A stretch of 64,000 nucleotides of DNA from Geobacillus subterraneus. Lineage in GTDB: Bacteria > Bacillota > Bacilli > Bacillales > Anoxybacillaceae. The DNA lies in NCBI RefSeq assembly GCF_001618685.1, contig NZ_CP014342.1:2232001-2296000 (forward strand), read 5' to 3'. Of this stretch, positions 17,478-62,927 are shown piece by piece. The notes beneath the pieces were generated by a model that saw only the letters and a program-made list of their open reading frames with translations, did not search any database and was not told the origin of the DNA. Made by a program: the position numbers and the translations under genes. Positions within the stretch are counted from its first letter, which is position 1. Every line of letters begins with the position of its first letter.

Positions 17478-17597
17478 TCAAACCGAAGAATTTTTTATCA
17501 GCGCATGTATAGAAATCGGCAAACCGTCCATAATGAGTAATGGCAACATCGTTAATGGCGTTGTTGCCAATGACGGAGAAGACTTACGTTTCCCCAT
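17478..17597 (-). CDS. Possible 39-residue small protein upstream of rsmD
   Basis: ATG preceded by GGAGGAAGAACTT (eight-base spacing) opens a 39-codon frame (starts MGKRKSSPSLATTPL, ends ALIKNSSV) on the same strand as rsmD and about 60 bases before it. The N-terminus is basic, the middle hydrophobic. I do not recognise it. Support is limited to the ribosome binding site and position. Confidence 0.35.
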   Translation of the reverse strand: MGKRKSSPSLATTPLTMLPLLIMDGLPISIHALIKNSSV

Positions 17598-17642
17598 AAG
17601 TTCTTCCTCCGGTTTCTCCTCTCCCTTTTCTTTTTTCTTTCC

Positions 17643-17676
17643 GTTCCTTGTTCCGCTCCACGCGGAGGCAAGGAAC
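17643..17676. repeat. Nested inverted repeat of unknown role
   Basis: GTTCCTTG/CAAGGAAC with an inner CCGC/GCGG stem. It would fold stably on either strand and lies ten bases from the following terminator hairpin. Confidence 0.6.
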
Positions 17677-17685
17677 TGGAAAGGA

Positions 17686-17720
17686 CCTTGCGGATCATTT
17701 GAACCGCAAGGTTTTTTTTT
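17686..17720 (+). terminator. Plus-strand terminator without an assigned gene
   Basis: CCTTGCGG/CCGCAAGG stem, ten-base loop, then nine T. Strong, and oriented for plus-strand transcription, yet no recognised plus-strand gene ends before it. Confidence 0.85.
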
Positions 17721-46280: not shown

Positions 46281-46321
46281 CAAAACAAACGGCGCACATG
46301 TGCCCCTTTCACATGTGCGCC
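46281..46321 (-). terminator. Terminator of the SR1 RNA
   Basis: Perfect 12-base arms GGCGCACATGTG / CACATGTGCGCC with a seven-base loop; minus-strand tail GTTTGTTTTG. Confidence 0.85.
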
Positions 46322-46353
46322 TATCCGTTCCTTCCCCCGTTTGTTTGACCGTC

Positions 46354-46479
46354 TTACTCTCTTTCTCCGCCTTCGTCGTCGTGTTCGCAGCAATCGCATT
46401 TTCCGTAAAGCGTTGTCACTTTTTCGTCTTCAAAATACGCAATCGTCGCTTCGCACGCTTGACATACGATCGTGCCCAT
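46354..46479 (-). CDS. sr1P: SR1P, GapA-binding small protein
   Basis: A 41-residue peptide MGTIVCQACEATIAYFEDEKVTTLYGKC with C6xxC9 and C28xCC31 cysteines, matching the SR1P family (B. subtilis YkzW, bound to GapA to promote GapA/RNase J1 interaction). AAAGGGG is seven bases upstream of the ATG. A longer frame upstream has no conservation. RNase J1 itself is encoded at 55230-56897. Confidence 0.9.
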   Translation of the reverse strand: MGTIVCQACEATIAYFEDEKVTTLYGKCDCCEHDDEGGERE

Positions 46480-46521
46480 CCCCAAAACCCCTTTATGATG
46501 ATAAATTTCGTTGTTGACTTT

Positions 46522-46550
46522 ATAATAATATATCATATTTTGATTGTCAA
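46522..46550 (-). promoter_or_regulatory. Promoter of SR1
   Basis: TTGACA (46545-46550) and TATTAT (46522-46527) with a 17-base spacer on the minus strand. In B. subtilis the SR1 promoter is repressed by CcpN and CcpA; no such operators were identified here. Confidence 0.75.
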
Positions 46551-56898: not shown

Positions 56899-56932
56899 AA
56901 AAAAAGGGGGCTTTCGCAAAGTCCCCCTTTTT
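56899..56932 (+). terminator. Terminator of rpoY-rnjA
   Basis: GGGGG/CCCCC core with CTTTCGCAAAG loop stem and TTTTT; directly after the rnjA stop. Confidence 0.85.
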
Positions 56933-59045: not shown

Positions 59046-60179
59046 TCATTCCATATTCCCTTTCCACGAAAAATAGTCGATTAAAAAAGCGATGGCCCGA
59101 TCGATCGCCGCCTCATTTGGGGCCAGCTTCGCATGGTGCAGCCCGTATGGCGAATCGACGCCAAGCCAAAACATAAAACCGGGGATCTCTGCCAACATAT
59201 AGCCAAAATCTTCACCGGTCATCGCCTCTTTGCAGCGGATGACATTCATGTCGGCATGCGTTTCAGCAAATTGGATAAACTCTGTCGTCAACGACGGGTC
59301 GTTGTACACTTCGTGGTACATGGCGCCGTAATCAATCGCCGCCTCACATTCGTAAGCCACTTCCACCCCGCGGACGATCGCTTCAATCCGCCGCTTCACT
59401 GCCTGCATCGCCGCCGTCGACAGCGTCCGGATCGTCCCTTCGAGCCGAGCGCGTTCGGCGATGACGTTTTGCACGGTTCCGCCGGTAATTTTTCCGATCG
59501 TAATGACGGCGCTGTCAAGCGGATCAACGTTGCGGGCGACGATCGATTGCAGCTGGGTGACGAGCGTGCAGGCGGCGACGACCATATCGTTGGCTAAGTG
59601 CGGAAACGCCGCATGGCCGCCTTTCCCTTTTAAATCAATAAACAGTTCAGACGTATTGGCAAACAGCAGCCCTTCTTTCGTCGCGATCGTGCCGACCGGA
59701 TATTCCGGGGCGATATGCAAGGCGACGATCATATCCGGCTTCCACTCGCGCATTATATCGCTTTCTAACATCGGCTTCGCCCCGCCCGGTCCTTCTTCGG
59801 CCGGTTGGAAAATAAACAGCAAATCGTCTTTGAGCGGGTGATGGGCAAAATGAGTCAACACGCCAAGAGCGATGCTCATATGGACGTCATGGCCGCACGC
59901 ATGCATTTGCCCTTCATGTTCGGAGCGATACGGCAGGCCGGTTTCTTCGCTGATCGGCAAGCCGTCGATATCGGCGCGGTAGCCGATCGTTTTTTGCGGC
60001 GCTGTTCCGTTGACTTTCACAAAAATGCCGGTTTTCCACGTCCGGACATCAAGCCGCTCCTGCGGCAGCGACCGAATATACTCCAGCAAATATTGCTGTG
60101 TTTTAAACTCTTGAAACCCGAGTTCGGGAATTTTATGCAAGTCGCGGCGAATGGCGACAAATGGGCTGATCGCTTCCAT
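59046..60179 (-). CDS. dapL: N-acetyldiaminopimelate deacetylase DapL (YkuR)
   Basis: A 377-residue M20-type metallohydrolase. [11 protein letters not shown] near 14, the metal motif [14 protein letters not shown] (about 89-102) and [14 protein letters not shown] (about 126) are intact. It removes the acetyl group from N-acetyl-LL-diaminopimelate in the acetylase branch. ATG is preceded by GGAGGAG, which lies directly at the intron's 3' junction. Part of the dapHL unit that the intron separates. Confidence 0.93.
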
Positions 60180-60225
60180 CTTCTCTCCTCCAATCGAGTA
60201 GGAGAGGGTGACTAACCCTCGTCCT

Positions 60226-60264
60226 CTCACACCACCGTACGTACCGTTCGGTATACGGCGGTTC
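60226..60264 (-). ncRNA. Intron domain V (catalytic core)
   Basis: Hairpin CCGCCGTAT...GTACGGTGG with the GAAC loop region typical of group IIC introns. It lies a few bases after the reverse transcriptase stop. Confidence 0.85.
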
Positions 60265-60266
60265 CA

Positions 60267-61526
60267 TTAAGTCTGACGCAGAGATTCATATCGTTGATAA
60301 AGACTCTTCAGCCCTTGGCTCTCCCAATAGGAGTTGCCAAGGGCTTTATGCAAGATGGGACTAGCGGCCACTCTCCAATATTTCTTCCGAGTGTTTCCCC
60401 ATTCATATGCTTTCCGCTTGGGCACTCCTAAACTTTGCAGTTTTCGGACTCTGGTTCTCGGAAGTTTCCACTCTTTCCATTGGCACATGCGCAGCCTTCG
60501 TCGAATCCATCCATCTAGTTCTTTGAACACACTTGGAGTCTCTGCTAACGAGAAGTATCCACACCATCCCAGAATGTACTGGTTGAGCTGTTCGATTCGC
60601 TCGGGCATGGGAATCGGTTTCGATCGACTCGTCATGGTGCGTATCCTTTGCTTCATGCGCCGAATACTTTCCTTTGCGATCCGGATTTTTGGCTCCTTAT
60701 TTGGGGTGAAGCTAAAACCGAGGAATTTTCTCCTCCACGGTCGATCCACTGCCGATTTGGTTTCATTGACTTTCAGCCGGAGTTTCTTTTCAATGAATGC
60801 CGTGATCGATTTCATCACCCGTTCCCCGGCCTTCTTCGTCCTTACGTAGATATTGCAGTCATCCGCATACCGTACAAATTTGTGCCCTCGTTTTTCCAAT
60901 TCTTTGTCCAGCTCATCCAAGAGAATGTTGGACAAAAGTGGACTGAGCGGCCCTCCTTGTGGAGTCCCCTCTTGTGTTTCCATGACCACCCCGTTGATCA
61001 TGACCCCTGCCTGTAGATACTTCCGTATCAACTTTAGGAGGATTTTGTCTGGAATTCGTTTCGCTAATATCCCCATCAGTTTGTCATGGTTGACTCGATC
61101 AAAGAACTTTTCCAAGTCGATATCTACCACCCATGTATATCCTTCCTGAATATACTGCTTCGCCTTTTTCACCGCGTCGTGTCCTCTTCGACCGGGACGA
61201 AACCCGTAGCTGTGTTCCGAAAAGGATGGGTCAAAGATCGGCGTGAGCACTTGGGCGATGGCCTGTTGGATGAACCGGTCTGTCACGGTCGGGATTCCTA
61301 GTAACCTGACTCCTCCGTTCGGTTTCGGGATTTCGACCCGTCGGACCGGGCAAGGTTCGTAGGTCCCTTCTTCCAAAGCGCGCCGTATCACGTCCCAATG
61401 TTCCACGAGGTGTCTTCGCAGGTCTTTGACGGACATTCCATCGGTTCCATGGGACCCTTTATTCTTTTCCACTTGTTTGAGTGCTCGCAGGAGATTCTCC
61501 CGTGACAGTACCTGTTTCATCCACAT
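60267..61526 (-). CDS. ltrA: Group II intron reverse transcriptase/maturase (class C, thermostable type)
   Basis: A 419-residue intron-encoded protein in domain IV. RT motifs: VRRVEIPKPNGGVRLLGIP (about 61-79), YGFRPGRRGHDAV, DIDLEKFFDRVNHD (about 135-148), TPQGGPLSPLLSNILLD and YADD (220-223); maturase/thumb region follows (PWRRKFLGFSFTP, NQYILGWCGYF). No HNH endonuclease domain, as in class C. It resembles the thermostable GsI-IIC RT from Geobacillus. The stop lies a few bases before domain V. Confidence 0.95.
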   Translation of the reverse strand: MWMKQVLSRENLLRALKQVEKNKGSHGTDGMSVKDLRRHLVEHWDVIRRALEEGTYEPCPVRRVEIPKPNGGVRLLGIPTVTDRFIQQAIAQVLTPIFDPSFSEHSYGFRPGRRGHDAVKKAKQYIQEGYTWVVDIDLEKFFDRVNHDKLMGILAKRIPDKILLKLIRKYLQAGVMINGVVMETQEGTPQGGPLSPLLSNILLDELDKELEKRGHKFVRYADDCNIYVRTKKAGERVMKSITAFIEKKLRLKVNETKSAVDRPWRRKFLGFSFTPNKEPKIRIAKESIRRMKQRIRTMTSRSKPIPMPERIEQLNQYILGWCGYFSLAETPSVFKELDGWIRRRLRMCQWKEWKLPRTRVRKLQSLGVPKRKAYEWGNTRKKYWRVAASPILHKALGNSYWESQGLKSLYQRYESLRQT

Positions 61527-62080
61527 TCCGATTCTTCCTCTCTACGTGAACGATCCGTTCTATTTGTGCCATCTTCTTCTCCACCCTCTTGAGGTCCCCC
61601 ATGGACTTCACCATTTCCTCCCTCAAGCAGGCCCTTTCGGGTTGTCTGCTTCATCAAAGAAGATGAACGCCTAGTGGCCGTTCTCCTTCATGGTTCGGTC
61701 CTTCCCCTTCTATCTTAAGCTAGACGGGTACTATGACCTCTGCTGACTTCTGTCCGTTCAGCGTTGGATCGCTCCAACGGTTGCCAAGCGCACTTGGCTT
61801 CCCGGACAGACCTCCCCGGGTAAGAGTGCAGTCTTTCCTTCCATCTATCTGCTTCATTTACTCGGTATCACCTTCGGCAGAAAGGGCTTCGTTTTGTCGT
61901 GCAAACTCACCCAATGATACCCAGCCTCCTATGAAGTTCGTGTTCCTCAGACCGGAAGTTTGCCGCCCGCTTCCTTCAGATTCTGCGTCGCCGCAGACAC
62001 CCTTGCGTTAAGCTAACTGCTACTTCTGCCTTCGCAGTTCGGGACTTTCACCCTATAGACTGCACCCATGCCGGGCGCAC
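61527..62080 (-). ncRNA. Group IIC intron domains I-IV 5' part
   Basis: About 550 bases of non-coding RNA beginning GTGCGCCC and including GCAGTCTATAGGGTGAAAGTC and AACTGCGAAGGCAGAAG, the 5' scaffold of domain I. No protein gene here; ORFs in this stretch have no support. Confidence 0.85.
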
Positions 62081-62084
62081 TCGG

Positions 62085-62117
62085 AAAAAAGCTGCCCTGT
62101 GAGCGGACAGCTTTTTC
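62085..62117 (-). terminator. Terminator of dapH, used as intron insertion site
   Basis: AAGCTG(T)CC/GG(G)CAGCTT stem with a seven-base loop and TTTTTT on the minus strand; the intron starts four bases after the T-run. Confidence 0.85.
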
Positions 62118-62123
62118 ATGTCA

Positions 62124-62834
62124 TTATAATTGGCGAAGCTCTTGTTTAATTTCCGTTTTCGCTCTCGTTTGTTCGTCAATTTGCTTAATGACGCGCGCCG
62201 GCACGCCGGCCACGACCGTATACGGCGGCACGTCTTCGACGACGATTGCCCCAGCAGCGACGACCGCCCCTTTGCCGACGGTGACACCTTCCAAAATGAC
62301 GGCATTAGCTCCAACGAGAACATCATCTTCAATCACGACCGGCTTGGCCGATGGCGGTTCAATCACTCCGGCCAACACCGCGCCAGCGCCGATATGGCAG
62401 TTTTTCCCGACCGTTGCCCGGCCACCGAGCACGGCGTTCATATCGATCATCGTCCCTTCGCCGACGACGGCGCCGATGTTGATGACTGCTCCCATCATAA
62501 TGACCGCATTGTCGCCGATCTCGACGTGATCGCGAATAATGGCGCCCGGCTCAATGCGCGCTTTCACCCCTTTTAAATCCAATAGCGGAATGGCGGAGTT
62601 GCGGCGGTCATTTTCGACGACATAATCCTCGATTTTGTCCCGATTCGCCTCGATAGCGGCTTGAATGTCTTGCCATTCGCCAAACACCACGCCGGTGTTG
62701 CCAGCGATAAACGTTTTCGCGCCCGGGCCGAAGTCGATGCCTTCCACGTTCCCTTTTATGTATACTTTGACCGGGGTTGATTTTTTGCTGTTTTGAATAA
62801 ATGAGATGATTTCATTCGCATCCATCATTTTCAT
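62124..62834 (-). CDS. dapH: 2,3,4,5-tetrahydropyridine-2,6-dicarboxylate N-acetyltransferase (DapH)
   Basis: A 236-residue left-handed beta-helix acyltransferase starting [16 protein letters not shown]. The hexapeptide repeats run from about 85 to 205 ([37 protein letters not shown]). Acetylates tetrahydrodipicolinate, upstream of DapL. GGAGGAGC at nine bases selects the start; frames further upstream lack conservation. Ends before a terminator that precedes the intron. Confidence 0.97.
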
Positions 62835-62927
62835 GGGCCATTGCTCCTCCTTGTCCATGTTCGTTTCTTCTTTACTGTAGCAAAACAAAGATGATCGTGG
62901 CAAGCGTCAATTCCCGGGCGCGCCCAG

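Follow-up and report, generated by a model that had tools for sequence, protein, structure and literature searches.

A recent, probably active group IIC intron behind a pre-existing hairpin inside the dapH–dapL gene pair of Geobacillus subterraneus

INTRODUCTION

In Geobacillus subterraneus, two consecutive genes of the lysine pathway, dapH and dapL, are separated by a group II intron that has a terminator-like hairpin in front of it and the Shine-Dalgarno sequence of dapL immediately behind it. This arrangement raises the question of how dapL is expressed, and whether the intron may alter the dapH:dapL ratio, as the initial annotation of this DNA proposed. We have addressed it by delimiting the intron, by comparing its copies and their flanks, and by reading the region downstream of dapH across the order.

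RESULTS

A full-length group IIC intron between dapH and dapL

The window, the whole stretch of 64 000 nt that was analysed (contig NZ_CP014342.1, positions 2,232,001 to 2,296,000), carries the locus on its minus strand in the order dapH, hairpin with T-run, CCGA, intron, T, GGAGGAG and dapL; positions given below are those of the window, and all features lie on the minus strand. The dapH gene (62124..62834; presumed start ATG at 62834, stop TAA at 62126..62124) encodes tetrahydrodipicolinate N-acetyltransferase (TIGR03532, 403.7 bits, cut-off 231.75). Upstream of it lies a weak promoter-like match, TTGCCA-18-TACAGT with TG before the second hexamer (62874..62903), in a region that gave five such matches against 4.4 expected in shuffles. 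The downstream gene (59046..60179, start ATG at 60179) encodes an M20 amidohydrolase (TIGR01891, 293.4 bits, cut-off 153.75; PF01546), which we take, by its family and its place behind dapH and not by a specific model, to be the N-acetyl-DAP deacetylase (‘dapL’).

The hairpin internal to this gene pair (62085..62117) has a folding energy of −18.2 kcal/mol (z −4.0), and an equal fold was found in none of 200 shuffles of the stretch 62127..62079. Its T-run (62090..62085) is followed by the four bases CCGA (62081..62084), which form IBS1, and then by the intron, for which the hairpin is the target stem-loop. The hairpin is absent from the output of a simple terminator scan; we think that the stem takes in the T-run, which is paired to an A-run, leaving no T tail behind the stem.

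The intron is 1888 nt long (60193..62080); it starts with GTGCGCCC at 62080 and ends with CTCGAT at 60193. These ends are set by seven copies with differing flanks, in which GTGCG...CTCGAT is constant, and by an exact empty site in a relative (genome G005). The intron RNA matches RF02001 (group-II-D1D4-3; 61824..61997, 145.4 bits) and RF01998 (group-II-D1D4-1; 61698..61783, 76 bits), both above the gathering score, and its fold contains hairpins assigned by shape and position to domain V (60231..60262) and domain VI (60195..60229). An open frame of 419 codons (60267..61526) encodes a reverse transcriptase/maturase (TIGR04416, 444.2 bits) whose Pfam matches are RVT_1 and GIIM only; no endonuclease domain was found in the Pfam search. 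The best solved relative of this protein is the GsI-IIC RT (6ar1), matched over the whole length with an E-value of 1.6e-182. The element is a full-length group IIC (bacterial class C) intron, the class of the RT being assigned from TIGR04416, RVT_1/GIIM and the best solved relative and not from a class-specific model or tree.

The initial annotation had placed a group IIC intron between the two genes, with its 5′ junction four bases past the dapH T-run and its 3′ junction beside the GGAGG of dapL. The two Rfam families, the maturase and the empty site confirm the intron; the bases CCGA before position 62080 confirm the first junction; and the single T between the intron end and the Shine-Dalgarno sequence GGAGGAG (60185..60191), which begins one base past the 3′ splice site, confirms the second. 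What had been given as the end of the element, 62117, marks the foot of the hairpin on its 5′ side.

Near-identical copies and an exact empty site

The genome of the window (G000) contains five copies of the intron: three share one sequence, and the remaining two each carry two differences. Another genome (G004) has two copies, both with the sequence of one of these variants, and none of the seven full-length copies has an interrupted RT frame; in a third genome (G013) there is apparently one copy, split over two contigs. Among 14 genomes of the genus and 41 of the family, one per species and with all spacers read, only that of the window has the intron between dapH and dapL. In G005, where DapH is 100% and DapL 98% identical to the proteins of the window, the site (locus L062) is empty and reads TTTTTTCCGA followed directly by TGGAGGAG, exactly the joined exons (empty-site sequence TTTTTTCCGATGGAGGAGAGAAGATGG). 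The leader predicted earlier to arise by splicing is identical to this natural empty site, so that splicing would restore the ancestral leader. Judged by these comparisons, the insertion is recent and the intron has recently proliferated and is probably active; the near-identical copies and the exact empty site are indirect signs of possible splicing and mobility.

Some partial or unusual copies were seen in relatives. In G004 a 3′-terminal relic of a related intron (L102, G004:C1:951002-951106; 87% over 105 nt) lies behind another terminator-like hairpin, ∼2.5 kb from dapL, and the matching place in the window (∼56932..56899) is without an intron. A truncated 5′ fragment of 123 nt (L103, G006:C1:1377418-1377540; 98%) lies behind a hairpin-like flank and looks like an incomplete insertion or a relic. 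At two loci of Bacillus massiliglaciei (L142 and L143) the 5′ end of an intron adjoins the 3′ end of another copy, the junction containing N, an arrangement produced either by head-to-tail insertion or as a scaffolding artefact.

The position behind a hairpin is the usual one

We collected the flanks of 87 copies, the best 80 of at least 577 confirmed relatives and the seven full-length copies of G000 and G004. Many of these loci are not from separate genomes (Cytobacillus gottheilii, Bacillus massiliglaciei and others contribute several), and the junctions were placed by the best ungapped match. A terminator-like hairpin, defined by a fold of at most −6 kcal/mol with the last pair no more than 13 nt from the junction, was present directly 5′ of the intron in 77 of the 78 copies with a readable 5′ flank of at least 45 nt (a raw count, without shuffle control); the 77 include L142 and L143, where the end of another intron copy forms the hairpin. 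Class C introns are described as inserting behind terminators and hence as being rarely transcribed (PMC8919778), and the target rule is reported likewise in PMC3898094. The position directly behind a terminator, singled out in the initial annotation, is therefore the general rule for this class.

The 3′ side of the site is more distinctive. A next ORF was called, heuristically, for 79 of the 87 copies (seven lack a readable 3′ end and one an ORF), on the opposite strand in 42 cases and on the same strand in 37. Within this set of the best 80 of at least 577 relatives plus seven, the same-strand ORF lies within 50 nt in three of the 37, and by the same heuristic calling the window copy is the only one of the 79 with a Shine-Dalgarno-bearing start within 40 nt; at L174 and L190 an ORF opens within 40 nt of the intron without a Shine-Dalgarno sequence there. 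The position behind a hairpin is thus ordinary, and the site in a gene pair is less ordinary, the hairpin being internal.

EBS1–IBS1 pairing at the dapH–dapL site

The candidate EBS1, ACGA (61897..61900), lies in the terminal loop GCACGACA, located from the Rfam alignment. The loop was compared with IBS1 in 19 rows of relatives matched by sequence pattern: 13 rows have the loop ACAA, with the sites UUGU (six) or with one or two letters changed or unread (seven); five have the loop CAUA, with the sites UAUG (two), AAUG, GGUG and UGUG; the remaining row is odd. The loop changes together with IBS1 in relatives, which supports ACGA as EBS1. With G-U counted, it pairs with 2 (window), 4, 3, 4, 4, 4 and 3 of the four bases before the seven copies. 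Short EBS1–IBS1 pairing, a trait of group IIC introns, is thus seen across the seven copies, and the weakest is that of the dapH–dapL site (CCGA, 2/4).

This pairing bears on two readings that differ from a near-neutral, splicing intron. According to the first, to which we give a minor though appreciable chance, the intron would measurably lower dapL expression, 1.9 kb of structured RNA slowing elongation and the spliced intron RNA binding to and reopening the ligated dapH–dapL exons. The five full-length copies of the genome could supply the intron RNA, and a comparable route for lowering host mRNA expression is reported for Ll.LtrB, which when spliced reopens ligated exons with loss of mRNA; EcI5 and BhI1 are reported to reduce mRNA also (PMC6003770). 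Ll.LtrB as described there interrupts a relaxase gene, whereas the intron in question occupies a spacer and its EBS1–IBS1 pairing is short and weak; with 2/4 pairs, the weakest of the seven copies, targeting of the mRNA should be weak.

The second reading, slightly less probable, is that splicing of the intron is poor or absent here, making it a passenger in the dapL 5′ leader. The 2/4 pairing does suggest that splicing may be less efficient here, but the intron sequence is identical to two other copies in the genome, the stem-loop is intact, and recognition of the 5′ site in group IIC introns is reported to rely on the stem-loop and not on extensive pairing (PMC7161350).

The spacer hairpin across the order

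The regions downstream of dapH were read in 104 genomes: 41 belong to the family, and 63 were taken from the 178 dapH-positive genomes outside it (the 23 with the best scores and 40 selected mostly for coverage of further families); a dapH match at the threshold was missing in 14 of the 199 genomes of the order. In 94 of the regions (37 families) dapL directly follows dapH; of the other ten, one is that of the window, and in nine dapH is followed by an ORF that by eye resembles a class III aminotransferase. Hairpins with stems of 7 bp or more occur in 78 of the 94 dapH–dapL spacers, compared with 5.8 expected from dinucleotide shuffles, and 76 of the 94 have at least four Ts in seven at the stem end, T inside the stem being counted (the spacers of the survey are L062-L101, L108-L135 and L216-L255). 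The distance from the hairpin end to the dapL start is at most 25 nt in 50 of the 78 (ten families), and in 34 of the 40 family spacers without an intron; in 13 of the 78 it exceeds 40 nt. The 16 spacers without such a hairpin comprise four similar but interrupted stems (family members G033, G036, G037 and G038), six spacers of 0–25 nt and six others. The six short, hairpin-less spacers, from genomes in f46, f16, f17, f20 and f25, mean that the element is not indispensable.

A stem AGCGTGGA...TCCACGCT is common to many families, Geobacillus having another stem, and GCGTGG occurs in 39 of the 94 spacers. Among 25 sequences chosen from 16 families, pairing is kept in 96% of cells and both sides have changed in six of ten pairs, a number reached by three of 500 shuffles; the covariation score of the stem exceeds those of all 500 shuffles, a comparison that relatedness can inflate.

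Hairpins of the AGCGTGG type were also sought in 20 genomes, most of them chosen for such a stem in the spacer. They occur at 24 distinct sites in 18 of these genomes (the control, the pattern read backwards, gave four matches). With 17 of the 24 sites at dapH–dapL, as judged by coordinates, and this the only site in 12 of those 17 genomes, the idea of a terminator repeated throughout the genome was not supported for this type.

By this comparison the hairpin predates the intron. The dapH–dapL spacing of intron-free relatives, the check proposed in the initial annotation, includes the hairpin as well as, in G005, the exact empty site; since the hairpin is present without the intron, the element that sets the ratio, if there is any, would be the hairpin, which is older than the intron.

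The hairpin might instead be a conserved RNA-processing or mRNA-stability element that the intron used only as its stem-loop target, and it would then not be a terminator. We regard this as unlikely: the sequence and pairing of the stem are, by eye, more conserved than the T-tract, and a few genomes lack a good one (G141 of f29, G143 of f31), but hairpins with Ts at the stem end, counted as above, are found in 76 of the 94 spacers. A speculative extension, also unlikely, would be that the hairpin is an old locus-specific cis-regulatory RNA of the order, perhaps bound or regulated, which the intron has captured; one hairpin would then serve both as expression valve and as splice-site and target, coupling read-through in the lysine/DAP pathway to expression and spread of the intron. 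Compensatory changes support the widely shared stem AGCGUGGA/UCCACGCU of this element. Judged by titles and the starts of abstracts, no literature on the dapH–dapL spacer was found, and no paper mentioning both ykuQ and ykuR was found in the literature searched.

The survey and the window also yielded observations apart from the hairpin. The class III (by eye, ArgD-like) aminotransferase ORF that replaces dapL after dapH in nine sampled genomes (L217, L219, L223, L224, L238, L244, L246, L252 and L253) is a candidate for the N-acetyl-DAP aminotransferase step. Genome G012 has, beside whole dapH and dapL genes, a second, broken pair (G012:C1:3387755-3389114), with DapH pieces of 83 and 99% and DapL pieces of 79 and 63%, the last with two TGA codons. 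Elsewhere in the window there are Rfam matches to the SR1 sRNA (46282..46524; 48.1 bits, cut-off 45) and to the ylbH leader (17571..17719; 88.7 bits, cut-off 50).

Read-through into dapL

In G005, with its empty site, the dapL start follows the end of the T-run at a distance of 17 nt. A weak scan found no promoter-like match there between positions 2248 and 1419 of L062, the nearest matches being one upstream of dapH and one inside dapL; the scan gave seven matches in the region against 4.1 expected (sd 1.9), which is about chance. In the window, the same kind of weak scan gave no match on the minus strand between 62874 and 60158. The 17-nt gap and the lack of a promoter-like match make read-through the most likely source of dapL transcripts, whether or not the intron is present. 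An internal intrinsic terminator combines a hairpin and a U-tract between co-directional genes that leave no room for a promoter; G005 and most of the family have this combination, and the 13 distant hairpins show that not all families do. That dapL has a promoter of its own, inside dapH or the intron, with the hairpin merely ending the dapH unit, is improbable: those 13 hairpins would leave it room, but the needed stretch gave no promoter-like match in the weak scans, and in 34 of the 40 intron-free family spacers the hairpin ends within 25 nt of the start.

The initial annotation had reasoned that, if the terminator holds, dapL needs either another promoter or read-through; this logic is borne out, with read-through favoured. 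Its proposal that the intron may alter the dapH:dapL ratio was to fall if an identical leader without the intron were found together with a separate dapL promoter. The former exists in G005; the latter was not seen in the weak scans. The intron itself may or may not affect the ratio. Translation of dapL need not await splicing, since its ribosome-binding site lies behind the intron. The mean unpaired probability of the Shine-Dalgarno sequence (37°C) is 0.46 in the spliced leader and, depending on the folded length, 0.59 or 0.32 in the unspliced RNA; from these values we do not propose that the intron hides or exposes this sequence.

DISCUSSION

We consider it likely that a recent, probably active group IIC intron has inserted behind a pre-existing hairpin internal to dapH–dapL, that dapL is expressed by read-through, and that the insertion is close to neutral. 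The intron would have retro-inserted behind the spacer hairpin because this hairpin and the short IBS1 together make up its DNA target. Transcription would start upstream of dapH; some transcripts would stop at the T-run and serve as dapH mRNA, and a fraction would continue into the intron and dapL. The read-through RNA would yield the maturase, and the intron could then splice, restoring the ancestral leader. As dapL has its own Shine-Dalgarno sequence behind the intron, its translation could in principle proceed on either RNA, spliced or not, and the intron is probably close to neutral at this site. We infer termination, read-through and splicing in the cell, as well as the near neutrality, from the anatomy of the locus, the empty site, the copies and the conservation of the hairpin.

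The intron resembles GsI-IIC and other class C introns in having an RT related over its whole length and no endonuclease domain found, in its position behind a terminator-like hairpin, in its short IBS1 and in its several near-identical copies per genome. Its protein is not the GsI-IIC sequence itself, and the window intron lies inside a gene pair with the next Shine-Dalgarno sequence one base past its 3′ splice site. The hairpin has a parallel in the ABC importers of cellulolytic clostridia, where stem-loops between co-directional genes are proposed to cause partial termination, with reported efficiencies of 20.7% to 96.1%, and the downstream genes are proposed to depend on read-through (PMC9045158). 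Unlike in those operons, termination at dapH–dapL is predicted from sequence, and the stem sequence is common to many families of the order.

Group IIC introns are regarded as nearly harmless, sitting behind terminators where they are rarely transcribed (PMC8919778). Here the hairpin is internal to the gene pair, so that the intron copy should be transcribed with it, probably as part of a housekeeping operon. The dapH–dapL copy thus offers a natural test of the cost of a group IIC intron and of the source of intron RNA. The intron is an ordinary one of its group in an unusual and informative place, and the conserved internal hairpin is of greater interest than the intron: it suggests that many bacteria of the order may set the dapH:dapL ratio by partial termination.
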